Positions 1 through 32,306 of a DNA stretch of 41,700 nt are shown here, in pieces. A program made the position numbers and the translations under genes. This stretch comes from an uncultured Clostridium sp. (GTDB lineage: Bacteria; Bacillota; Clostridia; TANB77; CAG-508), in assembly GCA_930990555.1 (NCBI GenBank), contig CAKNPW010000016.1, positions 1 to 41,700 on the forward strand, written 5' to 3'. The first letter of the stretch is position 1; each line of letters starts with the position of its first letter. Under the pieces are notes generated by a model. It was not told the DNA's origin. It was given only the letters and a program-made list of their open reading frames with translations, and did not search any database.

Positions 1-3000
1 GGCTCTTCTGGTACTTTTTCATCTTCTCCAGTTGGTGTTCCATCTTCGCCAACCTCAGCTATATATGCTGTGTTCTTTATTTTTGTTCCATCTACTAGTT
101 TGTTTACAGTTACTTTGAACTCTACTACTTTTTCTGTACTTATTGGTACATTTAGATTAATTCCGTTTTGTAAGTCTGTAGCTGTTTTGCTTGCGTCAGC
201 AACATTATCTATTTTTATTGAACCTTCTACAAATGTTGTTCCTGCTGGAATTGTATCTTTTACAACTACTGTTCCTTCTCTTGTTCCATCATTTCTTACT
301 CTTATTCTGTATGTTATTTCGTCTCCTTCACGTACTTTTGTTCCGCTTGCTGGGTATGACTCTTTATGTGCTGTTATATTTGGTTTTGTAACAGTTGTTG
401 TTACTTCATTTGTTGGCTCGTTATCTATATTTGCTTGGTTTGTTAATGTCTTGATATATTCGTTAGTTGCTAACTCGTCTACTATTCCTGCAAATACTAC
501 ATCTATACTTCCATTTGCTGGTATTTCTACTTGTATTCCATTCTTTAAGTTTTGTTCTGTATATACTGTTCCAGTGTTTCCTACTTGTATTAATGTATTA
601 TTATCAAATGTTATTCCTTCTGGTAATGTATCTTTTACTGTTACTGTTTTTGCTAGGTTTCCATCATTTCTTATTCTTATCGTATATGTTACCTTTTCCC
701 CTTCAATTGCTTCTTCTTTATCTACCAATTTTTCGCTACTTATTATTGCTTTGTATATTGGTGTTTCGAAACTACTTGTTGTTTCTTCACTTGTTTTCTC
801 TGGAGTTAATAACTTGATACTTCCTTTTACATTATTTGTTATCTTCTCTTGGTTCATATCTAGTCCTACATATACTACTTTGAATGTTTTAGTTATATTT
901 ACTGTTCCTTTTCCATTGTAACTATCTATGTCTGATACATTTTCTTTCCATGTTATTGTCTTACTTGTAGGATTGTAATCTCCTCCTGCTAAGTCTGATT
1001 TTCCTTCATCTATTGCATATGGAAGTGTATCTACTATTGTTACTTCTGCATTTCCTATGTAATCTGTTACTTCTGCTGTATATGTTACTGTGTAACTTAC
1101 TTCTTGGTTTGCAGATGTTATTCTTTCTGTTCCTGTTTTTGTAATATTGTTCGTTACACTTGGTGTTTTTAATCTATAGTAATATGTTACTACTATTTGT
1201 TCTGCTGTCATTGTTCCATTTGCATTTGCTGGTGTTGCTACTAATTCATAGTTCTGAGGTATATCTGTTGCTACTTGAGTTGTATAACTATCTCCAACTT
1301 CTCCATTTATTGTTACATCATCACTTAACTGCTCTGTTGTATTTTCTTTATAGTGATGCACTAATACTGATGTATCTTTTAATTTATAATAATATATTAC
1401 TTCTATTATATCTTTTGTCATAGTTCCACTTGAATTTGTTGGTGTTGATATAAGTTCATACATACTACTTACATTATCTGCTGGTTTAGTTGCATAAATA
1501 TCTCCAACAACTCCTGTTTGTATAACATCATCTGCAGTTCCACCATTTTGTAATGGAACTTTATTTGTTGTTTCTTCTATGTAGTAGTGAACAATTACTT
1601 TTGCTGGTATTTTTTCAAATTCTACTACTACATGTTTGTCTTCTATCATATTGGTAAATTTATTTAAAATTACTGTTCCATCTTCTTCTGGTGTATATTC
1701 TAGTGGCTCTCCATTTATTAATATTTGTTTTACCTGGTAATTTTCATCAGGTACTGCAACAATATCATTTTTCGAATCTTCCCCATATATAACTGTTTCA
1801 TATGGTTTTTGATTTTGTCCAGATATTGTTCCTCCTGCTACATCTACCTCTTCGCCCATTTCATTTATTTCTTTATGAGTCTGCACAGATGTTGTTACTT
1901 CTACAGTTTTAGCTTTATAGTAATATGTTACTACAACTCCATCTTTAGAGTATACTCCACTTGCATTTGAAGGAGTTATAGAAAGTTCATATTTAGTGTC
2001 TAATTCTTCTGCTGTTAGTGCTACTGTTGTATATTCTGTTCCAATCTCTCCTTTAGTTACAACGTCTTGTGCTGGTTCTCCTGAAACTAATGGTACATTT
2101 TCATTTGTACCTTCTATATAATGATGTACTGTTAATGGAACTTGTCTCTTTACATAATAATATGTAATAACTTGTTCTTCTTGTTTAAATGTTCCACTCG
2201 CATTTTCTGGAATTACATATTCTCCATCTACTTGTTTTAGTTCATATTCTTCTAAATCCATATGTGGAGCTGTTGTATAGTTTTCACCAATTGTTCCTGC
2301 AATATGTTCATCATCTGCAACTTTAGTTTGTGTACCATCTATATAATGATGTACTAAAACACTTGAAGCAGTATTACTAAATTTTACTACTATATGTTTA
2401 TTTGTTTGCATATTTGTAAACTGTGGCATAGTGAATGAACCATCTACTGCTGGTGTAAATTCATAATTTTCGCCATTTACAGTTATTTTAACAATTTTAT
2501 AATTTTCGTCTGGTACAATCTTAATTTCTTTTATACTGTCCTTTCCATATTCAACTGTTTCATATGGTGCTTCATCTTCACCTGTGATTGTTCCACCCTT
2601 TACTCCATCTACTTCTTCTATATCTGTAGTTACTTGGAATTTCTTTAAATTATTTTCAATTGTTATCTCTGATGATTCTGGTACTTCTGGAGCTGTAATG
2701 ACTTCTCCATAATTAAATACAAATCCGTCAGAATATTTAGATAAATTTTCTCCTTGTGAATCTGCTGTATCTCCCTTAACTGTAGTACTATTAAAGTATC
2801 CAACTGCAACAAATTCATTTTCGTCTCTTTCTGTAACAGCTGTTACTTCGTCTAAATTATCTCCTGTTACTTGTTTATACCATGCTTGGTTTCCGTCGGC
2901 ATCGTATTTTATTACAAATCCATCAGAGTTTCCAGAAATACTTGGTATCTCCCATGTTGTCTCTTCTTGGTTAAAATCTACTTGGCTACTATATGTATAA

Positions 3001-6000
3001 CCACCTACCATGTAGCCACCATCTGTAGTTTTAGTTACACTTGTTAATACCTCATCCAAAGTTCCTCTTATAAATTTACTACTATTAATTGTACTAGAGT
3101 TTATATCATATTCTATAATTATTCCATCATAATTTCCTTTTGTACTTACTGTTTGCGCTGTTCCTGTGTAATTACCTACAATTATAGCTTTTCCATTATC
3201 TAATCTTGCAACTGCATTTGCATTAAAGTCTAATGTAATTCCTGCAGTTACACTACCATTTGAATAAAAATCTATTCTTCCTGTTGTTGTATCTGTTAAT
3301 CCTTGGCTTACTATTATAACATCTTGGCTATTATAACCATCCATATCTGTTATTTCTATATTTGCACTTATTGTTGTTTCACCATTTATGCTTCCATCTG
3401 CATAAGCATATTCTATAACTTTTGGATTTTCGCCAGTTGTAACACCAGCAACTATATTTCCTTCTATATTTTGTGCTATTGCTGTTACATCATAGTCTAA
3501 CCCTTCTTGTGCAACTTCTTTTGCCCATTCATAACTTCCATTACTACTTAATTTTATTACTATACCTTTAGAGTTATTTGTAGTATTTGTTAAACCTGTA
3601 CTTACCTCTCCTACTTGTAGATTTGTACCTGTATAACATCCTCCTACTACATAACCACCATCATTTGTTTGAAGTACTTTATGTAATATAACTTCTCCTG
3701 ATTCTGTATATACAGAATTAGAAAATTCCATACTTCCTGCTTTGTTGTATTTTGCAATAAAACCAGAATAATATGAATCATTTCCTTTTACATCTGCTAA
3801 TTCATCATTATTTAAATCTGCTTCTTTTGTAAAATATCCACTTGTTACAAATCCATTATCAGTAGTTGTTTCTACTGCTTCTACTTTATTCCAAAAATCT
3901 CCTGCCACTTGTGCATTAAATGATGTTCCAAATTCTGTTTCTTGTGCTTTACTTGCACCTATACCAAAATAATATGTTCTATCTGCTTCATTTTCTGCAA
4001 ACTCATATCCTTCTGGTGCTTCTATTTCCGTTGCTTTATATAAACCTGCTTTTAAACCATAAGAAATTTCACCATTTTCATCTGTTTTTACAACTGGAAT
4101 TTGTGTATTCATGCCTTCTACTTTTATATTTTTTACAAAGCCTGAATCTAAACCATAATTGTTAGAGCCATCTGTTCTATAGGTAAAATCAATCTTATAT
4201 GTACCTGCTTCTAATTCTTCTGTTACAGTTTCGAAACTTAAGTCGTTATAATCTGTAATAGAAGAATTCCCACCAATTTTAGTTGATGTACCTCCTATTG
4301 TAGAATTATCTTTTGTATTTGTAATTGTATAATATACATAATCATAACTTACACTTTCTGAAGAAACTGCCCATTCAAAACTAATATTTCCGTCTTTTTC
4401 TAATGTAAATTCTTTTGATGTCATTGTACTTGTTTTGCTTGTTAAACCAGATATTCCACTTTGATATGTTCCATCTTCTAATTTAGACCATGGATATGTT
4501 TCTTCATCTAATGGGAATGTAATACTACCTGCTCCAACATTTTCTTCTAATGTACCTACAACATTTCCATTAATGTCTTTAGCAAATCCTAATTCATTAT
4601 AATTTTCGTCTATTTCTTTTATAACAAATTTAGCATTTTGAATTGGAAGTTTTGTTGCCCCATCTCTTTTTGTTATTTTAAATAAAGGTTCATCTTCGAA
4701 TTCTAAGTTTATTGTATTGTCTTGAACACTGCTATTACGCAAGAAATTATCTCCTAAAACTTCTAATTCTAAAGCTCCTTCTGTATTTCTTTTAACTCTA
4801 AATTGTAACTGCCTAGAATCTAGTGCATATCCTTCTGGTGGAGTAATTTCTTGAAGTGTATATACTCCAGTAATATTTTTTCCTTCTACATATTCATAAA
4901 GGTTTGGAATTGTAAGAACTCCTGTATCATCTGTTGTGTATGTTGCTCCTTTTTCGTCAATTCCTTCTCCTGTTATTTTGTATTGTGCACCTCTTAACGT
5001 TGTATCTTCTTCTTTTGCAAATTTCTTTACAGAAACTTGATATGTAGGTATCTTTTCGTTAGTAAGTTCTGCTGTTACAGTATCTTGTGCATCTAAGCCT
5101 GTTACACCTGTTCCTGTTGTAACTTGTGAATTACTATTAAAGCTTCCACTTGTAACAACAAACTCTAATTTTCCAGAATTATTTACAACTTTAAATTTAA
5201 CTGGTGTTTCGTTTACATAGTAATCTTTAGCCTCTGTTTCTGTTAATGTATATTCTACATCATGAGAAAGCCCTGTTAATGTTAAAGTTCCTTCTTTATT
5301 TGTTGCGACTGTAATACCATTTCCTAGTCCTTCTCCCTCTAGCTTATATTTTACTCCAGCTAAAAGGCTACTATCTGTATTATCTTTCTTTGTTAAAATC
5401 ACTTTATATTTTGGTGTATTTTCTACTTTAAAGTTTAGTATTCCCCTAGAATCTGTTGTTGCTTGTGTAATACTATATTCTTTTAATGAATCTTGACCTT
5501 CTAGAATTTGTAATACTAACTTGTCATCTTGTACTGTTACTTTAAATTTAACTTCTGTTTCGTTCTTTTCGTATGAACCTGGTGTACGAATTTCTTTTAA
5601 TATATATGTTTTATCAACAAATAAATTTTCGATAGTAAATGTTCCAGAATTATTTGTTGTTCCTAGCTTTGTTTCGTCTTCACCTTCTGCTGTTATACTA
5701 AATGTTGCTCCTTGTACAGGCACTGTAGTATCTTCTTTTACTTTTGACATATTTAAATGATATTTTCTTTCTATTCTAAAACCTAATTTTGTTGTTTCTG
5801 TTTGAGTTTTAAATTTTCCTTCTGCTGTATCTAGGCAGAAATATACTGCGTGTGCACTATATGAAACATCATTGTAGTTTACTGTAGTTGGTACTTTTAT
5901 TTGATAAGAAAATACTCTATTTTCCTTTACACTTAATACATAATCACCTAAATCTATTAGATATGTTTTTACTTTAGAGAAATCTGGTGTAGCTGTCCAA

Positions 6001-8591
6001 CCATTTTCGCTATCATTTAAGTCTGTTGTTGGATTTTCTTTTTCTGAATAATATACTGTAACCTTATCTTTCATATCTTCTGGTACTGTAATTCCGCCAT
6101 CTAACATTTGTGTAGTATAGTTTGAACCTAGGTCTGTTCCGTTTATAGAGAAAGTATTACCTTTAAATGGAATTTTTCCTAATATACTAACTTCACTTAT
6201 TGTTCCAGAATAATTATTTGTTACACTTACATTTACTGTTGCTGTATCTGCTTCTGTTTTATCTATTGTTGCAATTTGTGGTGCAACTGCTGTTTCTCCT
6301 GCTTCGTTATAATTTGTAGCTTGTTGATTTGTTAAAAGTGAGTTTGGCGCTACTATATTTAATGTATCTATTGCATAATTAACATTTTCTGTTACATTTT
6401 CGTCACCATCTACATCATATATATCTGATGTTTTATTTTTATAATTATTACAGAATTCATTATATGCATATAGTTTTACACTTTTTGACTGTGTTACAGA
6501 TCTTGGGTCTGCTGTTAAATTCGTATTAATTGTAATTGTATAATTTGCTTCATTTTCATTTTCTGTTTCTATTTTAATAAATTTCTTTCCATCTTTTTCT
6601 ACTATTTCGTACGCTAATAGTTTTACACTAGAATTAGAAATATTTACACTATTTATTTCTACATCTAATATCTCTTCTGGTAATTCTACTAAGAATCTTC
6701 CATTTGTCCAACCTTTCATATTGTAATAATCATTACGTGTAGTAATAGCTAAGTCTATATCTTTTTCTGTATTTTGAGTTCCAATTGTATCCCTATTTAC
6801 TGTAATACTTGCAACTGCTATTGGTTCTTCGTAACGAGCATTTGCAATATCGTCATTTATTTTTGTATAATCTACACTTCCTTCTGTTTTTACATTTCCT
6901 GTTAAATATGTATATATGTATTCTAATTTATCAAATTCTTCTTTTGTAAATGTTGCCTTTAAAACATTATCATCTATTTCTTTAATATTATATACATAAA
7001 AACTAGCATTTTTATTTGCTTTACTTGTTTCTATTCTTATATGTTTTACTGGTTCTGTATATATATATGGAGATGAACTATTGTAATTATTCCAATCTTC
7101 TTTTGTAAATGTGTGTATCTCTTCACCTGTTTCATCATTTATAACTTTTATGTATCCATCTTCTCCTAATGTATTTTCTACATTTGAAAAGTATATACCA
7201 GTATTTTTTGTATAGTCTGACATATTAAAATATGTACTTTCTGTATTTAAAAATCTATCTGTATATGGTGTATTAGTTTCTTTCATTTGGATAGAATCTA
7301 CATTTATTTGATCTCCTGTATATGCATACCATCTTACTTCGTATAAATCTTCTGTTTCTTCTGCTGTTTCATTATATATTTTTAATGGTTCTTCTTTAGA
7401 TATTATATAATTATAATCATAACTTCTATATTTTCCAGTTGTTACATCAAATCTTGCTGCACTTCCTTCTGGCTTTCTCCATAAAAATGTTATATTCCTT
7501 TCTGCTATATTTGATTGTACTGGATTTTGGAATTCATCATTTGGATTATTAAATCCTTCATAATATGCTTTTACTGGAACTTGCAAGCTTAATGTATCTC
7601 CTGTTAAGCTTTCATATAATTCATATGGATATGTTACTTTAAAATTAAATGTATTATAGTCTGATACTGTTTTTGTAACTATTCCTGCTTCATTTATTGA
7701 TGCTTCTCTTGTAATTGTAAAATTTCCTGTTTCTTCGTCATATTCAAAATTTACATCACTAGAAGTTAACTCTACACTTGTTGGTTTATATCCATTTACT
7801 GTTGGTATTGTTCCTTCTAAAACTGCTTTTTTTAATATTAAATCATCTGTTGTTTCTCTTGTTGTTACACTAAAGTTTAATGTAATATTTTCTTTATTTT
7901 CGTCTGTTATTTCTTCTATATTTTGTGTACCTGTATAGTTATAAATACTTGCTGTAACTGTTCCATACCAATCCACATTAAAATCTACTGTTTTACTTAT
8001 CTGCGTTCTGGTTCCATCATCTGCTATATGTGTACCAGTAAGTACTACACTATTTACTTGGCTATATTTATTTGTATCATTTCCAAAATTAGAGGCATTT
8101 ACTGTACCATAAATTAATTTTTGTGTTCCATTATTTACATCTTTTAATGCAATTTCTGTTGTATTATTAGATATATAGTTTTGTTTTATAACATTATCTT
8201 CTACTATTGCTGTAGATAAATTCATATTAGATGTTTTAATTGTTATTTTTCCATCCACTAATTTACCATTTGTTAGCACATTTAGGTTCATATATAGAGT
8301 ATCTGTTTTATTTATATCTCTACACATTCCACGTACTTGTTCTGCATAACCATCGCCATCTAAATCACGCAAAAAGAACGCATCAAATTGAACATAGTCT
8401 GTATTTGGTACTTTTTCATCACCTTCTTGTACTTGTTCATATTCCATGCTTTTTTGTATTTCTGGATCTGCTAATAATTTAGTTTTTTGGTTTTGTGTAT
8501 TAACCAGCAGGGCAACTATTGTTATTATTGCTGTTACTACTGCTAATATACTAATTGATAATGTTATTTTTTTCGTTCGTTTCCCTTTCAT
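1..8591 (-). CDS. Giant multidomain cell-surface adhesin (SpaA/Cna-B, MucBP and DUF11-type repeats), 3' end outside window
   Basis: One uninterrupted minus-strand frame of about 2,863 codons runs from an ATG at 8591 to the window edge. I checked the phase near 5220, 3480, 2100 and position 3 and it holds. An AGGAGG site lies about 7 nt upstream. The N-terminus is a basic stretch plus a hydrophobic signal/anchor (residues about 8-28), then a region with a DLDGDGYAE calcium-loop-like motif near residue 75. Cna-B/SpaA-like prealbumin repeats start near residues 940, 1060, 1185 and 1300. Repeats with TTDNGF.. / TNDGGYVVGG motifs, resembling beta-propeller blades, cover about 1550-1945. MucBP-like repeats (VHHYI[DE]GT) lie at about 2070-2410 and DUF11-like repeats from about 2420 to the edge. 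The family is cell-wall-linked adhesins; any LPxTG sorting signal would lie beyond the window. The gene follows DGR target gene 1 by 86 nt and may share its transcript. Confidence 0.85.
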   Translation of the reverse strand, partial: MKGKRTKKITLSISILAVVTAIITIVALLVNTQNQKTKLLADPEIQKSMEYEQVQEGDEKVPNTDYVQFDAFFLRDLDGDGYAEQVRGMCRDINKTDTLYMNLNVLTNGKLVDGKITIKTSNMNLSTAIVEDNVIKQNYISNNTTEIALKDVNNGTQKLIYGTVNASNFGNDTNKYSQVNSVVLTGTHIADDGTRTQISKTVDFNVDWYGTVTASIYNYTGTQNIEEITDENKENITLNFSVTTRETTDDLILKKAVLEGTIPTVNGYKPTSVELTSSDVNFEYDEETGNFTITREASINEAGIVTKTVSDYNTFNFKVTYPYELYESLTGDTLSLQVPVKAYYEGFNNPNDEFQNPVQSNIAERNITFLWRKPEGSAARFDVTTGKYRSYDYNYIISKEEPLKIYNETAEETEDLYEVRWYAYTGDQINVDSIQMKETNTPYTDRFLNTESTYFNMSDYTKNTGIYFSNVENTLGEDGYIKVINDETGEEIHTFTKEDWNNYNSSSPYIYTEPVKHIRIETSKANKNASFYVYNIKEIDDNVLKATFTKEEFDKLEYIYTYLTGNVKTEGSVDYTKINDDIANARYEEPIAVASITVNRDTIGTQNTEKDIDLAITTRNDYYNMKGWTNGRFLVELPEEILDVEINSVNISNSSVKLLAYEIVEKDGKKFIKIETENENEANYTITINTNLTADPRSVTQSKSVKLYAYNEFCNNYKNKTSDIYDVDGDENVTENVNYAIDTLNIVAPNSLLTNQQATNYNEAGETAVAPQIATIDKTEADTATVNVSVTNNYSGTISEVSILGKIPFKGNTFSINGTDLGSNYTTQMLDGGITVPEDMKDKVTVYYSEKENPTTDLNDSENGWTATPDFSKVKTYLIDLGDYVLSVKENRVFSYQIKVPTTVNYNDVSYSAHAVYFCLDTAEGKFKTQTETTKLGFRIERKYHLNMSKVKEDTTVPVQGATFSITAEGEDETKLGTTNNSGTFTIENLFVDKTYILKEIRTPGSYEKNETEVKFKVTVQDDKLVLQILEGQDSLKEYSITQATTDSRGILNFKVENTPKYKVILTKKDNTDSSLLAGVKYKLEGEGLGNGITVATNKEGTLTLTGLSHDVEYTLTETEAKDYYVNETPVKFKVVNNSGKLEFVVTSGSFNSNSQVTTGTGVTGLDAQDTVTAELTNEKIPTYQVSVKKFAKEEDTTLRGAQYKITGEGIDEKGATYTTDDTGVLTIPNLYEYVEGKNITGVYTLQEITPPEGYALDSRQLQFRVKRNTEGALELEVLGDNFLRNSSVQDNTINLEFEDEPLFKITKRDGATKLPIQNAKFVIKEIDENYNELGFAKDINGNVVGTLEENVGAGSITFPLDEETYPWSKLEDGTYQSGISGLTSKTSTMTSKEFTLEKDGNISFEWAVSSESVSYDYVYYTITNTKDNSTIGGTSTKIGGNSSITDYNDLSFETVTEELEAGTYKIDFTYRTDGSNNYGLDSGFVKNIKVEGMNTQIPVVKTDENGEISYGLKAGLYKATEIEAPEGYEFAENEADRTYYFGIGASKAQETEFGTSFNAQVAGDFWNKVEAVETTTDNGFVTSGYFTKEADLNNDELADVKGNDSYYSGFIAKYNKAGSMEFSNSVYTESGEVILHKVLQTNDGGYVVGGCYTGTNLQVGEVSTGLTNTTNNSKGIVIKLSSNGSYEWAKEVAQEGLDYDVTAIAQNIEGNIVAGVTTGENPKVIEYAYADGSINGETTISANIEITDMDGYNSQDVIIVSQGLTDTTTGRIDFYSNGSVTAGITLDFNANAVARLDNGKAIIVGNYTGTAQTVSTKGNYDGIIIEYDINSSTINSSKFIRGTLDEVLTSVTKTTDGGYMVGGYTYSSQVDFNQEETTWEIPSISGNSDGFVIKYDADGNQAWYKQVTGDNLDEVTAVTERDENEFVAVGYFNSTTVKGDTADSQGENLSKYSDGFVFNYGEVITAPEVPESSEITIENNLKKFQVTTDIEEVDGVKGGTITGEDEAPYETVEYGKDSIKEIKIVPDENYKIVKITVNGENYEFTPAVDGSFTMPQFTNMQTNKHIVVKFSNTASSVLVHHYIDGTQTKVADDEHIAGTIGENYTTAPHMDLEEYELKQVDGEYVIPENASGTFKQEEQVITYYYVKRQVPLTVHHYIEGTNENVPLVSGEPAQDVVTKGEIGTEYTTVALTAEELDTKYELSITPSNASGVYSKDGVVVTYYYKAKTVEVTTSVQTHKEINEMGEEVDVAGGTISGQNQKPYETVIYGEDSKNDIVAVPDENYQVKQILINGEPLEYTPEEDGTVILNKFTNMIEDKHVVVEFEKIPAKVIVHYYIEETTNKVPLQNGGTADDVIQTGVVGDIYATKPADNVSSMYELISTPTNSSGTMTKDIIEVIYYYKLKDTSVLVHHYKENTTEQLSDDVTINGEVGDSYTTQVATDIPQNYELVATPANANGTMTAEQIVVTYYYRLKTPSVTNNITKTGTERITSANQEVSYTVTYTAEVTDYIGNAEVTIVDTLPYAIDEGKSDLAGGDYNPTSKTITWKENVSDIDSYNGKGTVNITKTFKVVYVGLDMNQEKITNNVKGSIKLLTPEKTSEETTSSFETPIYKAIISSEKLVDKEEAIEGEKVTYTIRIRNDGNLAKTVTVKDTLPEGITFDNNTLIQVGNTGTVYTEQNLKNGIQVEIPANGSIDVVFAGIVDELATNEYIKTLTNQANIDNEPTNEVTTTVTKPNITAHKESYPASGTKVREGDEITYRIRVRNDGTREGTVVVKDTIPAGTTFVEGSIKIDNVADASKTATDLQNGINLNVPISTEKVVEFKVTVNKLVDGTKIKNTAYIAEVGEDGTPTGEDEKVPEE

Positions 8592-8677: not shown

Positions 8678-9922
8678 TTAATATAAAGTGCTGCGCGACA
8701 ACCGCCAGTTGTCGTAACTAGACGGATAGTAGTTGCTACGAGAGTCTGCTGGATCGTAGGTACCATCGATGACGTAACAGCCACTCCTAAAAACCCTGAT
8801 GAAGGTACTGCTGGCCTCCATTGTCCAGTCGTATACATTCCCTGCTAGGTCATATATGTTATTGGCTTTTGTGTACTCGCTACTACCTGTTGGTATTCTT
8901 GTACTACTTCCTTCATTTTTCGTTGCCACACTTCCACTACTATTTACATATTCAAATGTTGCATTATAGTAATTTCCCCAACTTGTTGAATCATCTGTTA
9001 TTTGCTCTTTTGTTTTATTTCCTGTTTCTATTAACCACATTAATGTTCTATCCCATTGGTTTCCCCATATCATTCCTGTTACTACATTTGTATTTTCTCC
9101 TCTTAAATTCTTACATCTTTTATACATCTTGTACCATGTTTGGCCATTTATATTTGTATTTCCTTTTCGTATTACTGGTGTCTCTTGGTTTATATTTCCT
9201 GTTTCATATCTTCCTATATAAAATCCTCCATATTTTTCCACACTTGCTACCATATTATTAAATTCTTTTTCCAACTGATTTAAAAATTCATGGGTTGTTT
9301 TTGCTCCTAGTCCTAGTGTTTTTAATCTTGAATCCATATCATATCCTGTACTTCCACTCTTTGGTACTACATCTGGCTCTCTACGACCTGTTTTACTACT
9401 TATTGTCATTACTCCATTACTTTCGCTCCAATTATATGGATATGTTCCTGTTATTTCATCAAATAAGCTACTTGAATTTGTTCTTGTTGTAAACTGATAT
9501 ATTTTTCCCCATTTTTTTCCATTGCTATCAATTCCATAAAATTTACTTATATCTGGTACTGGCACCCATACATATTGGTTTCTATTCTTTTGGGCTTCTG
9601 CTACATTACTATCTGTAACAGATTCTTCTCCTTCGTATATTACATATCCTGTATCTATTTCATTTTCTCCTGCTACACTACTTCCTACATATCCATTTGG
9701 CACTGGTATTTTATCTCCACTTGCGTCTTCCTCTACATGCATATATTCATTATTTTCTAAATTTATAGCATTTGCTGATGACTTTGTAGCTTGCAATACT
9801 GCACTATTCTCTTTTTTAGAAAATGCAAAAATTAAACTTGTTAAAACCAGTATTACTACCAATACTCCGCAAATTATTCCTATCATTTTTTTGTTTAATT
9901 TTTTTCTTGTTTTCTCAGCCAT
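8678..9922 (-). CDS. DGR variable protein 1: membrane-anchored FGE-sulfatase/C-type-lectin-like domain protein
   Basis: This 414-residue protein has a basic N-terminus and one hydrophobic segment (about residues 13-34), so the bulk should face outside. The C-terminal half carries the NIYDLAGNVYDWT signature of the formylglycine-generating-enzyme/sulfatase-modifying fold, a C-type-lectin-like scaffold common among DGR targets. The last about 43 residues are the variable repeat (8687-8817). The ATG at 9922 is preferred over the ATG at 9928 because GGAG lies 8 nt before the former and only 2 nt before the latter. A 681-bp block (8969-9649) is identical to target gene 2, while the N-terminus, the segment just before the VR and the VR itself differ. 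Enzymatic activity is not expected; ligand binding is inferred from the family. Confidence 0.9.
   Translation of the reverse strand: MAEKTRKKLNKKMIGIICGVLVVILVLTSLIFAFSKKENSAVLQATKSSANAINLENNEYMHVEEDASGDKIPVPNGYVGSSVAGENEIDTGYVIYEGEESVTDSNVAEAQKNRNQYVWVPVPDISKFYGIDSNGKKWGKIYQFTTRTNSSSLFDEITGTYPYNWSESNGVMTISSKTGRREPDVVPKSGSTGYDMDSRLKTLGLGAKTTHEFLNQLEKEFNNMVASVEKYGGFYIGRYETGNINQETPVIRKGNTNINGQTWYKMYKRCKNLRGENTNVVTGMIWGNQWDRTLMWLIETGNKTKEQITDDSTSWGNYYNATFEYVNSSGSVATKNEGSSTRIPTGSSEYTKANNIYDLAGNVYDWTMEASSTFIRVFRSGCYVIDGTYDPADSRSNYYPSSYDNWRLSRSTLY
8687..8817 (-). repeat. DGR variable repeat VR1
   Basis: This is the 3' end of target gene 1. Aligned to the template repeat it has about 24 substitutions at template adenines (AAC to TTC, ATC, GTC, TAC; AAT to TGT, GAT, TCT and others). 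It also has two substitutions not at adenines (GGT to AGT, TGC to CGC) and lacks one codon (131 against 134 nt). The adenine bias is the signature of mutagenic retrohoming. The extra changes suggest ordinary drift or an older template. Confidence 0.93.
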
Positions 9923-9928
9923 TTTCAT

Positions 9929-10105
9929 TTCTCCTTCAAGAATTTATATTATATATATTTATTTTATTTATATATAAATAACCTGTAAATGGCTGTATTT
10001 TCTATATTACAACAATATTTTTATTAGTCATTACGGATATACAAATTACGATTTATTTCTTGTCTTTTTTACATTTTCTTGTTTTTTATGTGTCAAACCT
10101 GTTTT
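9929..10105 (-). other. AT-rich spacer upstream of target gene 1 with a weak promoter candidate
   Basis: This spacer lies between the SSB-like gene and target gene 1. A TTGACA at 10096-10091 is followed after 17 nt by TGTAAA (10073-10068), a weak sigma-A-like promoter on the minus strand. If used, it would let target gene 1 and the adhesin be transcribed apart from the retroelement. No clear terminator or operator is visible. Confidence 0.35.
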
Positions 10106-10360
10106 TCAAGCTAAAAACTTAAAATTATAGATTTCTATAATCTCAACTTGCATATTTTCTCGTAGTTTCCCTCTTAAGAAAAATTTCTCTAAATCTTTTT
10201 GATATATATAATCCGCTATGTTATCATACGCAAACACCTCTATTTCTGAATTATTTAATAATTTTGCTTTAAATAAGACTTTTGATTTTTCTTTGCTATT
10301 TATTACAAATTTAAAATTTACATCACTTATCCTTTTTATAAATAAAAAACATTCATTCAT
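10106..10360 (-). CDS. Small SSB-like (OB-fold) protein in the DGR locus
   Basis: This is an 84-residue protein. Its pattern (IEVFAYDNIADYIYQ, then FFLRGKLRENMQVEI) resembles the middle and C-terminal strands of single-stranded-DNA-binding proteins, where a strand of type I.V.A(W/F/Y)... is followed by a helix and a G(R/K)L strand. It is shorter than a typical SSB (about 110-170 residues) and lacks the acidic C-terminal tail, so it would be a minimal OB fold. The Shine-Dalgarno site is poor. It lies between the template repeat and target gene 1 in the same orientation. A role in handling single-stranded cDNA is inference from position. The alternative is an unrelated housekeeping SSB paralogue. 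Confidence 0.6.
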   Translation of the reverse strand: MNECFLFIKRISDVNFKFVINSKEKSKVLFKAKLLNNSEIEVFAYDNIADYIYQKDLEKFFLRGKLRENMQVEIIEIYNFKFLA

Positions 10361-10600
10361 AATTATTAGTTAAAAATTCTTAGCATACTTCTTAACCTTA
10401 AATCTAAAACGTTTATATTTATACCTTTTCACCTTGAAAATTCTTTTTTAAAAAGGTCTTAAAATACATACTTTCGCTATACCTACTGGTATATATTTTA
10501 ATGATTCATATTTACCTTAAATAGGAAGGAATAAACCTCTTTAATATCTAATATTTCACTGGACTACTTCCGTAAAAATAGCCATCTGGATTGATATTAG
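10361..10600 (-). ncRNA. Structured spacer 3' of the template repeat, probable part of the DGR RNA
   Basis: This is 240 nt without a gene, directly downstream of the TR on the transcribed strand. At 10459-10501 there is an 8-bp outer stem (10459-10466 with 10494-10501) that encloses a 6-bp hairpin with a 4-nt loop (10478-10493) stacked directly on it. It also encloses a small hairpin capped by GAAA (10467-10477), so it has the look of a three-way junction. In studied DGRs the RNA flanking the TR is needed for cDNA priming. Assigning that role here is inference. Confidence 0.5.
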
Positions 10601-10734
10601 AGTGCTGCACGACAACCGTCTGTTGTTGTTACTATTAGTCGGATTGTTGTTGTTACGATTGTCTGCTGGATTGTTTGTACCATTGTTGTTGTAATTGCCA
10701 CCCCTATAAACCCTGTTGTTGGTACTGTTGGCCT
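10601..10734 (-). repeat. DGR template repeat (TR)
   Basis: This 134-bp non-coding segment starts 12 nt after the reverse transcriptase stop codon. Read in the frame of the targets it is crowded with AAC/AAT codons (runs of Asn), exactly where the VRs hold Tyr, Ser, Cys, His, Gly, Asp and others. It keeps the invariant framework codons of the VRs (Arg-Val-Tyr-Arg-Gly-Gly, Pro-Ala, Arg-Leu-Ser). It ends in the GC-richer CGGTTGTCGTGCAGCACT shared with VR2. The open frame across it has no start of its own and is not a gene. Confidence 0.95.
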
Positions 10735-10746
10735 TTCGGTTTATCC

Positions 10747-11757
10747 CTAATTTATATAAAAAAGTTTCTCTTCCAAATTCCTTGTATTTGCATATTTCAT
10801 ATATCCTAAATGACCACATATAAATCTACTTGCTTCTTTGCTACTTATATTGCCTTTTTTTACTTCTTCTTTTAAATGTCTAACTTTTTGCTTAATAGCT
10901 TTTTTCCCTCTATCTCGTAACTTTAGACGATATTCGTTTATCTTGTATCCACAAAAATTTACTCCCTGACTACTTTTAAATATTTGGGTTTTGTCGTTTA
11001 ATTCTAATTCTAATTTTATTTTTAAATAATTTTTAATTTTTTCTAAAAGTTCAATGGCTTCTTTTTTTGTTTTTACAAATAAAACCGAATCGTCCATATA
11101 TCTAAAATAATATTTTACTTTAAGCTCGTGTTTTATATATTGGTCTATTTCATTTAAGTATATATTTGCAAATATTTGTGAGGTATAATTACCTATTGGA
11201 AGTCCTTTTTTACCTGAATTTGAATATACTATTTTTTCTAATAGTTTTACTAATTTTTCTTCTTTTACTTTTCTTTTTAAAATACTCATTAGAATATCTT
11301 TATCTATATTCTGAAAATATTTTCGAATATCCATTTTTAAAATATAATAATTTTGCCATAGTCTTTTGCAATGTTTCATTGTATTTTGTACGTCTATAGA
11401 TGCTTTATGCATTCCTCTTTTTTTTATACATGCGTATGATGTATCTATAAATTGATTTACAAAATATCTATTTAAAAAACTATCTACTATCCATCTATGT
11501 ACAATTCTATCTATATATCGTGAAGCTTCTATTTTTCTTCTTTTTGGATATTGAATATAAAAAATTCTATATCCACCATGTTCATAAGTTCCATTTTTTA
11601 GCTGTTCATATAGCCATCTTATGTATTCTTCTTGTTTTAGATTAAATAGAATAACTTCTTTTTTATAATTTTTTCCTTTCCTAGAAAGTAAATGTGCCTT
11701 CATAAGATTGTCATAAGTTAAATATTTATCAAATTCATTCCTTATTGTTTTTGCCAT
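10747..11757 (-). CDS. DGR reverse transcriptase
   Basis: This 336-residue RT copies the TR transcript into error-prone cDNA that replaces VR sequence. Visible motifs are the first catalytic Asp in KMDIRKYF (residues 141-148), LPIGNYTSQ at 186-194 and the YMDD box at 220-223. The (L/I/V)GxxxSQ form of motif 4, in place of QGxxxSP of group II intron or retron enzymes, is diagnostic for DGR RTs. There is no fused maturase, endonuclease or other domain. The ATG at 11757 overlaps the end of avd by 23 nt, which suggests translational coupling. The TR follows immediately, an order less common than TR before RT. Confidence 0.95.
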   Translation of the reverse strand: MAKTIRNEFDKYLTYDNLMKAHLLSRKGKNYKKEVILFNLKQEEYIRWLYEQLKNGTYEHGGYRIFYIQYPKRRKIEASRYIDRIVHRWIVDSFLNRYFVNQFIDTSYACIKKRGMHKASIDVQNTMKHCKRLWQNYYILKMDIRKYFQNIDKDILMSILKRKVKEEKLVKLLEKIVYSNSGKKGLPIGNYTSQIFANIYLNEIDQYIKHELKVKYYFRYMDDSVLFVKTKKEAIELLEKIKNYLKIKLELELNDKTQIFKSSQGVNFCGYKINEYRLKLRDRGKKAIKQKVRHLKEEVKKGNISSKEASRFICGHLGYMKYANTRNLEEKLFYIN

Positions 11758-12109
11758 AGTATCTTACTAAGCCTCCTATTATTTTGCCCATTTCATATAT
11801 TAGACTCATAGCATATTCAAATTTTTTCTTATCTATCCATGCATTTTTATACATAATCCTTAGTAAAATTCTTTGAACGCTTAAATCTGCATCAATTTTA
11901 TTGATAATATTAAATCTTTTTTTTATGTCTATTTTATTTAGATACATTATGCCTTCTAGCATTTTATACATAGAATTTTTATATTCTGTACCTATACTAA
12001 ATTTCTCTGTCCTTGGAATTTTTAATATTACCTCTAACATATATTCAATATATCTTTCAGATTTTGGAATTAATGTTAATTCACTTTCCTTTTTATTTTG
12101 CTTTTCCAA
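11735..12109 (-). CDS. avd: DGR accessory variability determinant (Avd-like four-helix protein)
   Basis: This 124-residue protein is almost entirely helical and basic, with the length and helix pattern of Avd, the S23-like four-helix bundle. Avd forms a ring, binds the DGR RNA and the reverse transcriptase, and is required for cDNA synthesis. Segments such as RYIEYMLEVILKIPRTEKFSIG and ADLSVQRILLRIMYKNAW, spread over residues 19-92, match this family by eye. It sits directly before the RT (23-nt overlap) and overlaps the gene upstream by 17 nt. Identification rests on pattern and context. Confidence 0.85.
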   Translation of the reverse strand: MEKQNKKESELTLIPKSERYIEYMLEVILKIPRTEKFSIGTEYKNSMYKMLEGIMYLNKIDIKKRFNIINKIDADLSVQRILLRIMYKNAWIDKKKFEYAMSLIYEMGKIIGGLVRYYGKNNKE

Positions 12110-12488
12110 GATTTCTCACTCTTTCTAATATATCTTCTTCCTGTTCTTTTCTGTTTTCACAGTTCTTACATTCCAAACAGTTTCTAGTTTCTTTGGTATC
12201 TTTTCCTTTATATCTATATATTTCCTCTAATTCATCTTTTTCATTTTTTACATATAAGATAAATGAATAACCTAGTTTTTCTAACTTTGCTATATATCTC
12301 TCTACATTTTTTACTAAAAATCCTACTTTACATAGTTCTTTTCGCATGCAAGTTAATTTTAGTCCTAATTCTTCATGTAAAGTTATTGCATCTTTTCCTA
12401 TTGCTACAAAGAATATTCCATTCTTTGCTAATATTATTGACCCTTCATTTTCTTTTTGTAATTTTTCTACTTCTTGGACGAATTTCAT
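12093..12488 (-). CDS. MutS domain I-like DGR accessory protein with a cysteine motif
   Basis: Residues about 20-85 of this 131-residue protein resemble the mismatch-recognition domain I of MutS: a strand like GIFFVAIGKDAITLHEELGL, then a segment leading into VERYIAKLEKLGYSFILY, equivalent to the MutS pattern around its YHAVDSYIAKL motif. No other MutS domain or ATPase is present. A CLECKNC motif (CxxCxxC, about residues 104-110) suggests a metal site. MutS-like accessory genes have been described in some DGRs, and its place between target gene 2 and avd fits. GGAGG lies about 11 nt before the ATG. Its action on heteroduplexes made during retrohoming is inference. Confidence 0.7.
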   Translation of the reverse strand: MKFVQEVEKLQKENEGSIILAKNGIFFVAIGKDAITLHEELGLKLTCMRKELCKVGFLVKNVERYIAKLEKLGYSFILYVKNEKDELEEIYRYKGKDTKETRNCLECKNCENRKEQEEDILERVRNLGKAK

Positions 12489-12584
12489 TTTTTATTTTCC
12501 TCCACATAAACACAAATTATTAATTTTCTATTATTCAAACTTCTTTACTTGTTATAGTGCATCGCTACCAGGGCTCAGTATTAC

Positions 12585-13904
12585 TTAATATAAAGTGCTG
12601 CACGACAACCGTCTGTAGTTGTTACTATGAGTCGGACTGTAGCCGTTACGATAGCCTGCTGGACAGTTTGTACCATTGTAGTAGTAATAGCCACCCCTAT
12701 AAACCCTGTAGTTGGTACTGAGGGCCTCCATTGTCCAGTCGTATACGTTTCCGGCTAGGTCGTATATATTATTTGCTTTTGTGTACTCTGCACTTCCTGT
12801 TGGTATTCTTATATAGCTTCCTTCATTTTTCGTATCCACAAATCCTCTACTATTTACATATTCAAATGTTGCATTATTGTAATTTCCCCAACTTGTTGAA
12901 TCATCTGTTATTTGCTCTTTTGTTTTATTTCCTGTTTCTATTAACCACATTAATGTTCTATCCCATTGGTTTCCCCATATCATTCCTGTTACTACATTTG
13001 TATTTTCTCCTCTTAAATTCTTACATCTTTTATACATCTTGTACCATGTTTGGCCATTTATATTTGTATTTCCTTTTCGTATTACTGGTGTCTCTTGGTT
13101 TATATTTCCTGTTTCATATCTTCCTATATAAAATCCTCCATATTTTTCCACACTTGCTACCATATTATTAAATTCTTTTTCCAACTGATTTAAAAATTCA
13201 TGGGTTGTTTTTGCTCCTAGTCCTAGTGTTTTTAATCTTGAATCCATATCATATCCTGTACTTCCACTCTTTGGTACTACATCTGGCTCTCTACGACCTG
13301 TTTTACTACTTATTGTCATTACTCCATTACTTTCGCTCCAATTATATGGATATGTTCCTGTTATTTCATCAAATAAGCTACTTGAATTTGTTCTTGTTGT
13401 AAACTGATATATTTTTCCCCATTTTTTTCCATTGCTATCAATTCCATAAAATTTACTTATATCTGGTACTGGCACCCATACATATTGGTTTCTATTCTTT
13501 TGGGCTTCTGCTACATTACTATCTGTAACAGATTCTTCTCCTTCGTATATTACATATCCAGTATCTATTTCATTCTCTCCTGTTACACTACTTCCTACAT
13601 ATCCGTTTGGCACTGGTACTTTATCTCCACTTGCGTCTTCCTCTATATGCATATATTCATTATTCTCTAAATTTACTGCATTTGCTGTCGTTTTTGTTGC
13701 TTGTAATACTTCACTGTTTTCTTTTTTTGAAAATGCATATGCTATTAATGTAGCTAGTAGTATAATTACTAATATTATAGTAATTGGTACTACTCTTTTC
13801 TTATTTACTATTCTTTTTGTTTTGTTTTTACTATTTTCTTGTTTTTTAGTAGTTGTCTTAATTGTACTTTTTAATGTTTTACTCCCTTTTTTACCTTTTC
13901 CCAC
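12585..13904 (-). CDS. DGR variable protein 2: membrane-anchored FGE-sulfatase/C-type-lectin-like domain protein
   Basis: This 439-residue paralogue of target 1 starts at a GTG (13904) with AAAGGAG 7 nt upstream. It has a long Lys-rich N-terminus, a hydrophobic anchor at about residues 39-58 and an external FGE/C-type-lectin-like domain with the NIYDLAGNVYDWT signature. The last about 43 residues form VR2, which differs from the TR only at adenines. It shares a 681-bp identical block (12879-13559) with target 1. It is the first full-size gene after the leader and is followed by the accessory genes and RT, so it is likely the main current target. Ligand binding at the cell surface is inferred. 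Confidence 0.92.
   Translation of the reverse strand: MGKGKKGSKTLKSTIKTTTKKQENSKNKTKRIVNKKRVVPITIILVIILLATLIAYAFSKKENSEVLQATKTTANAVNLENNEYMHIEEDASGDKVPVPNGYVGSSVTGENEIDTGYVIYEGEESVTDSNVAEAQKNRNQYVWVPVPDISKFYGIDSNGKKWGKIYQFTTRTNSSSLFDEITGTYPYNWSESNGVMTISSKTGRREPDVVPKSGSTGYDMDSRLKTLGLGAKTTHEFLNQLEKEFNNMVASVEKYGGFYIGRYETGNINQETPVIRKGNTNINGQTWYKMYKRCKNLRGENTNVVTGMIWGNQWDRTLMWLIETGNKTKEQITDDSTSWGNYNNATFEYVNSRGFVDTKNEGSYIRIPTGSAEYTKANNIYDLAGNVYDWTMEALSTNYRVYRGGYYYYNGTNCPAGYRNGYSPTHSNNYRRLSCSTLY
12594..12727 (-). repeat. DGR variable repeat VR2
   Basis: This is 134 bp, collinear with the TR without gaps. There are 16 differences, and every one is at an adenine of the template on the coding strand: 10 A to T, 4 A to G and 2 A to C by my count. 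They change 13 codons of the target protein tail. The framework codons, Ser/Cys/Thr codons and the terminal GC-rich motif are unchanged. This is direct evidence of adenine-specific hypermutation. Confidence 0.97.
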
Positions 13905-28551: not shown

Positions 28552-29265
28552 TTAAGCTAGTGCATTTGCTGCTTCTAATTCGAGCTCATTTATTTCAAAA
28601 TTTTTATTATTGTTTTTAATTAAGCTATGTATATTTTCTATTGTTCTTGCTTCTTTTAGTAAATTTTCTAATGGCATTATTTTATCTAAATATTCTTTTA
28701 TATTATTCATTTCTATTTCCATTATATCAAACTCTTTATTTGTATATGCATTTTTCCATTCTTTAATAGCTGTTTCAAATTTATTTATTTCATTTCCTTG
28801 TTCTATAATCATCTCTTCTATATTACTACTTATATTATCTAATATTAAATTTTTACCCTGTTTTATTACAGTAGCAATATTTTCGTTTAACTTTCCTGAA
28901 TCATTTATTTTATTTAGTGCAATATCAATTCCATTTGAAATAGAATCTATTATCCCTCCTGTTTCTACTGCCTTTTGCATTTGTGAAATATCATCAAATT
29001 TACCTGTTACAATTCCCATTGCATTTTTTCCTAAATCTATAGCCTCATCTATTGCTGTATTTATTCCTTCCTTAAAACCATCTTTAAGTATACTATCTTT
29101 TATTTTTATTACTTCATCTTCTACAAAATCTGGTAATAAAAATCTTATTCCTAAATCAAGTCCTGTATTTATAATTCCACCTAAAGTTGTTTCTAAAAAG
29201 CTCTTTTGTTCTTTTTCTACTTCTATATTTTTATCATTTAAATTATTTTGTAAGTTTATATCCAT
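28552..29265 (-). CDS. Hypothetical helical protein of the VirB4/ParA module
   Basis: A 237-residue protein, mainly amphipathic helices. A Gly-rich segment near residues 26-45 (TTLGGIINTGLDLGIRFLLP) could touch a membrane; there is no signal peptide. Repeated Asp-Ile-Gly/Ile patterns fill residues 60-140 and the C-terminal third is a likely coiled coil. AGGAG lies 11 nt before the ATG, and it overlaps the ParA-like gene by 23 nt. I do not recognise the family. Its invariable coupling to an ATPase pair suggests a shared complex, but this is inference. Confidence 0.6.
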   Translation of the reverse strand: MDINLQNNLNDKNIEVEKEQKSFLETTLGGIINTGLDLGIRFLLPDFVEDEVIKIKDSILKDGFKEGINTAIDEAIDLGKNAMGIVTGKFDDISQMQKAVETGGIIDSISNGIDIALNKINDSGKLNENIATVIKQGKNLILDNISSNIEEMIIEQGNEINKFETAIKEWKNAYTNKEFDIMEIEMNNIKEYLDKIMPLENLLKEARTIENIHSLIKNNNKNFEINELELEAANALA

Positions 29266-29857
29266 ATTTTTTATTCTCCTTTAATAAATTTTTCATTATT
29301 TTTAATAAATCTTTTTTTATAGAATTTATTTTTATTATTTTTTCCATATTTAAAAATACTTCTATCTTGTTGCTGTAATCTATTTTTCCAAGAATATTTA
29401 TTGATTTGAAAATGCTATATAAAATTTCTTTATCTATTGAATTATAATTATATTTATTAAAAATAATATTTATATTTTCCTCTTTAATATCTTTTGTATT
29501 TTTTCTAATTAATTCTTTTAATTTTTTTATTCCTAGTAAATTACATTCTGACAAAAATATATTTGTAGAATTATTTAATAAATCTTTTGTTTTTAAAAAA
29601 TTTATTTGTGGATTATCAAAAATAATTATATTATATTTATCAATTTCTGTTTTATAGAACTTATTTATTAAATATATATTTTCTATTTTTATTACTTTTT
29701 TTTGTACTTTTTTATTAAATATTTTATAAATATTTTGTTGATAATCAATTATTAATACTTTACCTTTATTTTCTGCCATTACATTTGCTAATAATATTGT
29801 TATAACACTTTTACCTACACCATTAGCACCAAATATATTTATTACTTTTTTAATCAT
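29243..29857 (-). CDS. ParA/MinD-like P-loop ATPase
   Basis: A 204-residue protein starting MIKKVINIFGANGVGKS. The P-loop GANGVGKS (residues 10-17) sits where ParA/MinD/CobQ proteins have KGGxGKT; the usual first lysine of the deviant Walker A is not in place. VLIIDYQQ (about 34-41) and IIIFDNPQ (about 78-85) match the switch and Walker B strands. It is shorter than typical ParA (about 250). It overlaps the VirB4-like gene by 8 nt. Possible roles are positioning or assembly of a partner complex; plasmid partition is less likely because no ParB or centromere is visible. Confidence 0.7.
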   Translation of the reverse strand: MIKKVINIFGANGVGKSVITILLANVMAENKGKVLIIDYQQNIYKIFNKKVQKKVIKIENIYLINKFYKTEIDKYNIIIFDNPQINFLKTKDLLNNSTNIFLSECNLLGIKKLKELIRKNTKDIKEENINIIFNKYNYNSIDKEILYSIFKSINILGKIDYSNKIEVFLNMEKIIKINSIKKDLLKIMKNLLKENKKYGYKLTK

Positions 29858-31664
29858 CTCCTTCCCCTTTTTCTATTATCTTTTTTTCGAAATCTGATGA
29901 ATCTATTTTTACTATGATGTGATCATTTCCAACAAACATTAAACATTCTCCTTTTGAAAATGATTTTATTTCTATTTTTTCTTTTTCTGATAACTTAGTA
30001 TATTTTTCTAATATATTAATATTCTCTTCTTCTAAACAAAAAAATACTTTTATATTTGAATTATTTAAAATGCTTTTTCCATATGTTCCATTATCTAAAC
30101 TAAATAAATCTGATATATCTTGGGTTATTGCCACTCCACTACCTCCATATTTTCTAATAGTTTTAAATATTTTATATATAAATGAAGCAACTTCTTTATT
30201 AGATGTTACACCTATTAGTCTCCAAATTTCGTCCATGTAAATAACTTTTCTTTCTTTACGATTTTTTTTTATTAAATCCCAAAATAAATCTACAAATATA
30301 TACATCCCGTATTTAATATTTTCCTCACCTAATTCATATATATCAGCAATTATTAATTTATCTTTTGTCTTTATATTTGTATATTTATTAAAATAATTTA
30401 AACTGCCTTTTACAAAAGGTAACAATTTAATATGAAATTTCTTTGTTCTTTTATCTTGCCCTAGTAACTCATAAAACTCTCCTAATATTGGCATATCTTT
30501 ACTTTCTTTAAAGACTAATTTATTGTTTTTTATCTTATATAGACTTTTATCGTTAAAATTTATATTTTTGTTTTCGTATAGTGTAATTAGTTTTTCTTCA
30601 ATAATTGATTTTTCTTCCTCGTTCATCTCTCCAAATATTAAATTAAAAAATCCTTTAAGTTTATCTATTTTTATACTAAGATAACCTTTTTCGTTTTTCT
30701 CTATACTTTCTTCTCTTATATCAAATACATTTATATATGTACTTGAAGTTGGCCCTATTTTTAATAATGTTCCATTTAATGCTTTGCATATATTTCCATA
30801 TTCCCTATCTGGATCTATGACATATTGATTTATTTCTTGAATTCCATATCTTAATATTAGTAATTTTATATAAAAAGATTTTCCTGCTCCAGACGTTCCA
30901 AACACGCACATATTGGGATTTTTATATTTTTGAGTATTATATCTATCTATAAAAATCATTGAATTATTATAAATATTTCTGCCAATATACACTCCCTTTT
31001 CGTCAAAAATTGATGATGAAATAAAAGGATATGTACTAATAAGTCCATCTGTTAAAATATTTCTCCTTGTAGAAAACTTTAAATCTTTATCATTATACAT
31101 TAGTGGTAATGTTGATTTATATATTTGCTCTTGTCTAAAATTTGCTCTTCTACTTTGCATTCCTGACCCTTGTATTATTCCCTCTATTTTATTCAAGTTA
31201 TATTCTAATTCTTTTATTGACTCAGCAAAAAGATTAATATAAATATATAAATAATATATATCTTGATTATTTATTTGAATCTCTTTTCTTATATATTTAG
31301 CATCATTATATGTATATTGCGCTATATCAACATCCTGTCTATTATTATTTATTTCTTTTAAATCTGCTGACACATTTCCTATATTATACGTTAATTCTTT
31401 TAAAGTTTTATATTTATCTTGTTTTTCGTAAAATATTGAAATATTCATATTTATATTGGTATCTATTAAATTTTTTAATAATAACTCTTCATTTTCTCTT
31501 AAGTAATTTACTATCATTAAACCTGAATAATACATATTATCTATTTCTAAATATTTTGGATTTTGGTTATTTATGTATGATGGACAAATATAATTTTCTT
31601 CCATAAAATTACTTTCTTGTTGTTTTTTTGGAAATAATTTTTTTAATATATTTCTTTTTATCAC
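29850..31664 (-). CDS. VirB4/TraE-like ATPase
   Basis: A 604-residue AAA-type ATPase like those that energise type IV secretion. Walker A is in CVFGTSGAGKSF (about residue 257) and QYVIDPDREYGN follows as in VirB4/TrbE. Walker B is in KVIYMDEIWRL (about 478) and a sensor-like GVAITQDISDLF follows. It is shorter than usual VirB4 (about 650-800). The missing N-terminal part may be supplied by the upstream gene. Start is a GTG directly after the previous TAG; an in-frame ATG about 20 codons in is an alternative. No relaxase, coupling protein, VirB6 or VirB8 gene is seen. Confidence 0.82.
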   Translation of the reverse strand: MIKRNILKKLFPKKQQESNFMEENYICPSYINNQNPKYLEIDNMYYSGLMIVNYLRENEELLLKNLIDTNINMNISIFYEKQDKYKTLKELTYNIGNVSADLKEINNNRQDVDIAQYTYNDAKYIRKEIQINNQDIYYLYIYINLFAESIKELEYNLNKIEGIIQGSGMQSRRANFRQEQIYKSTLPLMYNDKDLKFSTRRNILTDGLISTYPFISSSIFDEKGVYIGRNIYNNSMIFIDRYNTQKYKNPNMCVFGTSGAGKSFYIKLLILRYGIQEINQYVIDPDREYGNICKALNGTLLKIGPTSSTYINVFDIREESIEKNEKGYLSIKIDKLKGFFNLIFGEMNEEEKSIIEEKLITLYENKNINFNDKSLYKIKNNKLVFKESKDMPILGEFYELLGQDKRTKKFHIKLLPFVKGSLNYFNKYTNIKTKDKLIIADIYELGEENIKYGMYIFVDLFWDLIKKNRKERKVIYMDEIWRLIGVTSNKEVASFIYKIFKTIRKYGGSGVAITQDISDLFSLDNGTYGKSILNNSNIKVFFCLEEENINILEKYTKLSEKEKIEIKSFSKGECLMFVGNDHIIVKIDSSDFEKKIIEKGEGDD

Positions 31665-32219
31665 CTACTTTTTTAAATTAATGCATGTATTTAGACAAAA
31701 ATGCAAAACTTTAATAACTTCATCTTTTTTACATTCTTTTACTTGGTTCCCGCATTTATTTAAACATTCTTTTATTTTTAGGTATTTTTCATTTAGTAAA
31801 TAGTGAATATTTTCTATATTATCTGTTTCACTGTGCTCATCTATAATAATATAATAATTTTTTGTGGATGTTTGTTTTTCCGAATTAATTTTTTTTAGAA
31901 ATTCAATATACTTTCTTGAAATAACTGAAATTGAATTATTTTTTGATTTTTTAGTATTATCTACAATTTTAGATATATCCTCTTTATTTGTATGAACTAA
32001 AATTTGAAGATTAAAATTACATGTCTTTAAAAAAATTTTATATGAATTTAAAATAGCTTCTTTTTCCAAAGCAGTTTTTAAATTAAAATTTATTGGTTGA
32101 ATTCTTAATATTTTTATAAATATATTTTTATTTTTTAGTTTTATAACTCCATTTTTATCTATCAACTCAATATTCAACCAATCTTGAGTTGATTTATTAT
32201 TTATTTTTACATATATCAC
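31665..32219 (-). CDS. Small protein preceding the VirB4-like ATPase (TraC-like)
   Basis: About 184 residues if a GTG at 32219 is used; the start is uncertain. The open frame extends to an ATG at 32291, but that ATG lies upstream of the promoter at 32236-32264, so it cannot be used from that transcript. After the AGAGGTGAT site the frame reads VKINNKSTQDWLNIE with GTA where a start would be expected. The body has RIQPINFNLKTALEKEAILNSY... (residues 80-102 of the long frame) typical of the small proteins encoded before TraE/VirB4 in Gram-positive conjugation clusters. It could form the N-terminal part of a split VirB4. Four cysteines near the C-terminus are notable. Confidence 0.6.
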   Translation of the reverse strand: MIYVKINNKSTQDWLNIELIDKNGVIKLKNKNIFIKILRIQPINFNLKTALEKEAILNSYKIFLKTCNFNLQILVHTNKEDISKIVDNTKKSKNNSISVISRKYIEFLKKINSEKQTSTKNYYIIIDEHSETDNIENIHYLLNEKYLKIKECLNKCGNQVKECKKDEVIKVLHFCLNTCINLKK

Positions 32220-32235
32220 CTCTAATCTTTGTAAA

Positions 32236-32264
32236 ATAATACTATTATTTCCAGTATTTGTCAA
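32236..32264 (-). promoter_or_regulatory. Promoter of the VirB4/ParA module
   Basis: TTGACA (32264-32259), 17-nt spacer, TATTAT (32241-32236) on the minus strand, just after the gyrB terminator. The module therefore has its own transcription unit. Confidence 0.8.
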
Positions 32265-32306
32265 CAATATTTGTAATACAAAAATCGACATTTATTACTA
32301 TTACAC

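Follow-up and report, generated by a model that had tools for sequence, protein, structure and literature searches.

A chromosomal diversity-generating retroelement of gut Clostridia with an RT-14 RNA, a MutS-domain-I-like gene and a candidate SSB-like accessory

A 41,700-nucleotide stretch of DNA from an uncultured Clostridium sp. (contig CAKNPW010000016.1; hereafter the window, in whose coordinates positions are given) raises the question of whether it carries a complete diversity-generating retroelement (DGR) that is still at work, and of which parts such an element is made. An earlier reading based on the letters and open reading frames (the sequence-only reading) had described a complete, recently active-looking, two-target DGR with two target genes, a reverse transcriptase (RT) and an Avd-like gene. 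All of these parts are present, and three others were missing from that list: a gene for a MutS-domain-I-like protein (MSL), an RT-14 structured RNA and a gene for a small SSB-like protein. We consider it very likely that the locus is a chromosomal DGR of gut Clostridia, in which a transcript comprising the template repeat (TR) and the RT-14 RNA is copied with errors at adenines, and the cDNA then replaces the variable repeat VR2 and, formerly or more rarely, the variable repeat VR1. Each part of the element described below lies on the minus strand.

The TR (10601-10734) is located just 3' of the RT gene, starting 12 nucleotides past its stop codon, and includes 54 adenines and 18 AAY codons. 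Realignment with VR2 (12594-12727) bears out the adenine-only divergence claimed earlier: the two repeats differ at 16 of 134 positions, and all 16 are template adenines (hypergeometric P = 1e-7). On the coding strand these changes are nine A>T, five A>G and two A>C, with none at the remaining 80 template bases, and they alter 13 codons, most commonly from Asn to Tyr. The same tabulation by template base, which the sequence-only reading had proposed as a check, places 24 of the 26 substitutions in VR1 (8687-8817) at TR adenines (P = 1e-9). The two non-A substitutions in VR1 are one G>A and one T>C in the 3' block (GTCGTGCAGCAC to GTCGCGCAGCAC), and this repeat also has an in-frame 3-nucleotide deletion relative to the TR. 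The shared 3' block GTCGTGCAGCACT, a putative IMH, is the same in the TR and VR2 and carries one T>C in VR1. A scan for A-biased repeats returned the same two TR/VR pairs, and a genome-wide search of this assembly yielded no further VRs beyond chance matches to the TR. The swapped assignment, with 12594-12727 as the template, was rejected because it spreads the differences over several template bases, and we therefore take 10601-10734 to be the template.

The RT gene (10747-11757) encodes a protein of 336 amino acids that matches PF00078 (1.1e-20) and contains the DGR-type SQ motif LPIGNYTSQ, as had been read from the sequence. Its nearest phage matches are annotated as reverse transcriptases, and relatives in its family occur in a DGR context. 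The adjacent gene (11735-12109, 124 amino acids), previously called Avd-like, matches the bAvd family PF22296 (1e-17) at 65 bits against a cut-off of 40, and this confirms the assignment; its score with the NCBIfam model DivGenRetAVD (NF033474; 9.5e-20) is 70.9 bits, just under the cut-off of 80. The genes for RT, MSL and the SSB-like protein are under purifying selection, with dN/dS values of 0.07-0.24. Of the 292 genomes sampled from the bacterial family, 122 contain this RT family, representing 25 of 39 genera, and dozens of related loci have the same architecture together with A-biased TR/VR pairs.

The sequence-only reading had proposed that the element diversifies the C-terminal tail of a surface protein. 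DGR diversification of such a tail is supported, and the proposal was incomplete in naming a single protein, since there are two paralogous targets with 86% identity. Target 1 (8678-9928, 416 amino acids) has an N-terminal membrane anchor and a putative C-terminal FGE-sulfatase/C-type-lectin-like domain that ends in VR1, and target 2 (12585-13904, 439 amino acids) carries VR2. PF03781 (FGE-sulfatase) is matched by 4 of 18 target relatives (best 5e-4), and a weak match to sulfatase modifying factor 2 (E = 0.08) was also obtained. Directly downstream of target 1 lies a gene for an adhesin-like surface protein (3-8591, minus strand) of more than 2860 amino acids, cut by the contig end and 92% conserved in the genus mates G005 and G011. 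In these same two genomes a second, truncated SSB-like gene lies upstream of target 2 (L034:5546-5746 and L072:5545-5745), which suggests duplication of an SSB-target unit. Three further genomes of the genus (G006, G007 and G010; L226-L240) encode 8-18 target-like paralogous surface proteins whose C-termini vary, and have no close DGR RT or RT-14 RNA. That these DGR-less genus mates recently lost the same element was considered and rejected, because their 8-18 paralogues do not match the TR; the exception is a pair of fragments in G007, located at the ends of contigs, which have 6-8 non-A mismatches to it.

Evidence on recent activity comes from comparing G005 with G011, two sister species that carry the same element and have identical TRs. 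Like all genomes compared, these are metagenome assemblies, in which hypervariable sites can be mis-assembled and consensus VRs may hide a population; read with this in mind, VR2 differs between them at 30 of 52 template-A positions and at 1 of 82 others (Fisher P = 9e-15). Divergence in VR2 amounts to 23%, 30 of the 31 changes falling on adenines of the TR, compared with 1.5% in the RT gene, and there are 0 substitutions in the TR, the RT-14 RNA and the MSL, Avd and SSB-like genes. VR1 shows 3 template-A and 7 other differences, mainly at its damaged 3' end, and is in this sense nearly frozen. The recent activity that had been suggested is thus upheld for VR2 and less so for VR1, which also bears non-A changes in the window; within the limits of a comparison of two sister genomes, variation at the VRs favours the earlier claim. 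We read this as one live target (VR2) and one stale target (VR1) in the G005 and G011 species, not two equal ones. At positions specific to the lineage, VR1 of the window still agrees with the TR of the window, which points to a probable rewriting since the lineages diverged, though this VR1 now contains non-A changes. The body of the target 2 gene is 8.4% divergent between G005 and G011, which indicates that recombination between paralogues probably occurs as well.

Immediately 3' of the TR, positions 10459-10602 match the Rfam family RT-14 (RF02921) at 123 bits against a gathering score of 48.1, so that the RNA covers 144 nucleotides from the TR 3' end onward. When 41 related loci are compared, compensatory changes affecting both sides are seen at 20 of 23 predicted base pairs, and the RNA adjoins the TR even in loci where the TR is upstream of the RT gene. 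Because the spacer of the BPP-1 DGR binds RT-Avd and primes cDNA synthesis (PMC12875486), we infer by analogy that RT-14 RNA is probably the portion of the TR transcript that binds RT/Avd and primes the cDNA. At one related locus (L040:5221-7218, equivalent to G225:C20), six tandem TR-like units, each followed by its own RT-14 RNA, are located upstream of MSL-Avd-RT. Alignment of these units shows 54 variable columns, with an A present in 37 of them, and the array is possibly a multi-template DGR. Similar arrays occur in G271:C8, G175:C14 and G116:C17, and G261 has many RT-14 copies. Several DGR RT genes of the family contain multiple stop codons (e.g. G167:C26 and G117:C4), and these decayed elements are still found near high-scoring RT-14 RNA.

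The MSL gene (12093-12488), located between the Avd gene and target 2, encodes 131 amino acids and matches PF01624 at 34.6 bits against a cut-off of 20.6, a family also matched by 31 of 31 MSL relatives. Its fold is that of MutS domain I, with Taq MutS as the best Foldseek match (E 2e-6). When aligned to MutS, all 31 relatives keep the mismatch-contacting Phe, and the Glu of the Phe-x-Glu motif is present in 0 of 31. MSL also lacks the ATPase domain that, with the complete Phe-x-Glu motif, marks a MutS mismatch sensor. Both MSL and HRDC are known DGR accessories (PMC10053308). MSL and the SSB-like gene co-occur (30 cases with both, 7 with neither and 8 with one only; P = 0.001, uncorrected for kinship). 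An Avd-only DGR subclade lacks both, indicating that neither is essential for DGRs in general.

The gene that we propose as a further DGR accessory (10106-10360) lies 3' of the TR and encodes an SSB-like OB-fold protein of 84 amino acids. Neither Pfam nor NCBIfam names this gene, and the window's protein itself does not match PF00436 (SSB), a family matched by 19 of its 37 relatives (best 3.2e-8). Its AlphaFold model (pLDDT 87.6) aligns to an SSB with a Z score of 13.0 and 1.7 A over 82 residues. Because the SSB-like profile, used by itself in a sequence search of the PDB, gives weak matches (best SSB E 0.18), we base the assignment on the fold and on the relatives that match Pfam. The protein stops where the OB fold ends and has no C-terminal acidic interaction tip, and its gene has a dN/dS of 0.07. 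In a search of 117 genomes using a profile built from DGR loci, 39 of 44 near-full-length copies were found within 2.5 kb of a DGR RT gene or RT-14 RNA, most of the 39 at less than 150 nucleotides, in many genera and in both orientations. In dozens of DGR loci a relative is found at the equivalent position, and in L055-L063 the relatives are inverted jointly with MSL. DGRs, multi-target DGRs and MSL are already known; the SSB-like accessory appears to be undescribed in the literature searched, with priority uncertain given a 2018 survey, cited in PMC10053308, that includes one DGR-associated protein outside Pfam.

The element is chromosomal: dnaA, dnaN, recF, gyrB and gyrA are on the same strand, and ptsI adjoins it. 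Its distance from dnaA is 26 kb, and it is oriented outward from this gene. Carriers make up 3 of 14 genomes of the genus, and in the other two the element is 27 kb from dnaA in the same orientation. In the genus mate G002, ptsI is followed directly by the large adhesin gene with no DGR between them, a junction resembling an empty site. In E. coli, closeness to the origin and an orientation matching that of replication are reported to favour DGR editing, and exonuclease I to inhibit it (PMC12875486). The position near the origin, the orientation and a need for single-stranded DNA handling fit these results, a fit that is not evidence for the roles of the SSB-like protein and MSL. Origin proximity as a family-wide rule was not supported, dnaA and the listed DGR RT being on different contigs in the other genomes compared. 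Between gyrA and gyrB (28552-32291, minus strand) are genes for a VirB4/TraG-like ATPase and a ParA/MinD-like ATPase together with two unnamed genes; no other conjugation genes were seen.

Other accounts of these observations have to be weighed. In favour of a fossil element, with VRs diversified long ago and nothing moving now, are the non-A changes and deletion of VR1, its frozen state in the sister species and the broken RTs in several relatives elsewhere in the family. This account is very unlikely given that VR2 is free of any non-A change, that it has 30 template-A differences between genomes with identical TRs, and that the RT, Avd and MSL genes are intact, with RT and MSL under purifying selection. 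Gene conversion among duplicated surface-protein genes, in place of retrohoming, could draw on the 86% identity of the targets, on the 8-18 paralogues of related species and on a VR2 gene body that differs between the sisters as if by recombination. However, conversion would not confine changes to template adenines, the adenine-only substitutions of VR2 have no donor paralogue, and full-length DGR-less paralogues show at least 37 non-A mismatches where the whole TR length aligned, so that we find this origin of the variation scarcely credible.

Equally to be considered is whether the element belongs to a prophage or another mobile element, since many DGRs are phage-borne and its sparse occurrence in the genus (3 of 14 genomes) suggests transfer. 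Its flanks consist of ptsI, the large adhesin gene, gyrA, gyrB, recF, dnaN and dnaA, with no phage genes seen; the best viral RT is about 40% identical, and a phage search gave no match for the MSL or SSB-like proteins. Prophage origin was rejected on this gene context and on the viral and phage searches, and membership of any mobile element is extremely unlikely. The SSB-like gene could be a chance neighbour or general cargo rather than a component of the DGR: for 5 of the 44 near-full-length copies, no DGR RT or RT-14 RNA was detected nearby, one DGR subclade does without the gene, and the search profile itself came from DGR loci. We regard this as unlikely, given the other 39 copies within 2.5 kb, and mostly within 150 nucleotides, of RT-14 RNA or RT across many genera and in both orientations, and given that the gene moves with MSL as an inverted pair in L055-L063.

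A chromosomal DGR with additional parts can be compared with known systems. It has in common with the BPP-1 phage DGR of Bordetella (PMC12875486) an RT, Avd, a TR, a VR at the 3' end of the target gene, adenine-directed changes and a structured spacer 3' of the TR, and its targets may share the C-type-lectin-like fold. Unlike BPP-1, it is chromosomal, has its TR 3' of the RT gene, carries MSL, an SSB-like gene and two target paralogues, and has RT-14 RNA as the spacer. It resembles other DGRs with an MSL accessory (PMC10053308) in having a PF01624 gene in the cassette, and differs from them in that MSL stands alongside Avd and a small SSB-like gene and lacks the mismatch Glu in all 31 sequences. 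The Rfam family RT-14, to which the window's 123-bit match belongs, abuts the DGR TR 3' end in the loci examined. The SSB-like protein shares its OB fold with bacterial SSB and PriB (PF00436; Z of about 11-13 to SSB and PriB structures), but it has 84 amino acids, no C-terminal acidic tail, 8-18% identity to solved structures and a DGR-linked gene. About one in seven DGRs is multi-target (PMC3521204). The two-target phage DGRs with tentaclins (PMC10743442) likewise have one TR serving two targets, C-type lectins there and putative C-type-lectin-like proteins here, although those phage targets have a different topology and reside in phages, whereas the window has two chromosomal paralogues, one of them stale.

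In the mechanism that we favour, an RT-Avd complex would copy the transcript of TR and RT-14 RNA with errors at adenines, with RT-14 RNA presumably priming cDNA synthesis as the BPP-1 spacer does. The cDNA would then take the place of VR2, and in the past or less often that of VR1, at the 3' ends of genes for membrane-anchored surface proteins, so that up to 18 AAY codons may be changed in a putative C-type-lectin-like display surface. The SSB-like protein may bind single-stranded cDNA or a lagging-strand target gap, and MSL may bind the duplex of cDNA and target, with its many mismatches, without recruiting repair. The data directly support the anatomy of the locus, its adenine specificity, the natural rewriting of VR2 between sister species, the conserved RNA structure and the conserved linkage of MSL and the SSB-like gene. 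A more tentative proposal, which we hold to be possible and still rather doubtful, is that this DGR lineage has its own DNA-handling pair, in which the SSB-like protein coats and delivers mutagenised cDNA, and the Glu-less MutS-domain-I protein covers the heteroduplex and keeps host mismatch repair away. Deletion of mutS had no effect on an insertion reporter (PMC12875486), and such a reporter does not test substitutions.

The least understood step of DGRs is the entry of mutagenised cDNA into the target. If the proposal is true, the DNA-handling pair would be a dedicated solution to this unsolved integration step. A cassette with SSB-like and MutS-domain-I-like proteins, whose template RNA is pinned to an Rfam family, offers concrete parts for the reconstituted E. 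coli system (PMC12875486), and the sister-species comparison provides a record from nature in which one target has been rewritten and its paralogue has hardly moved.
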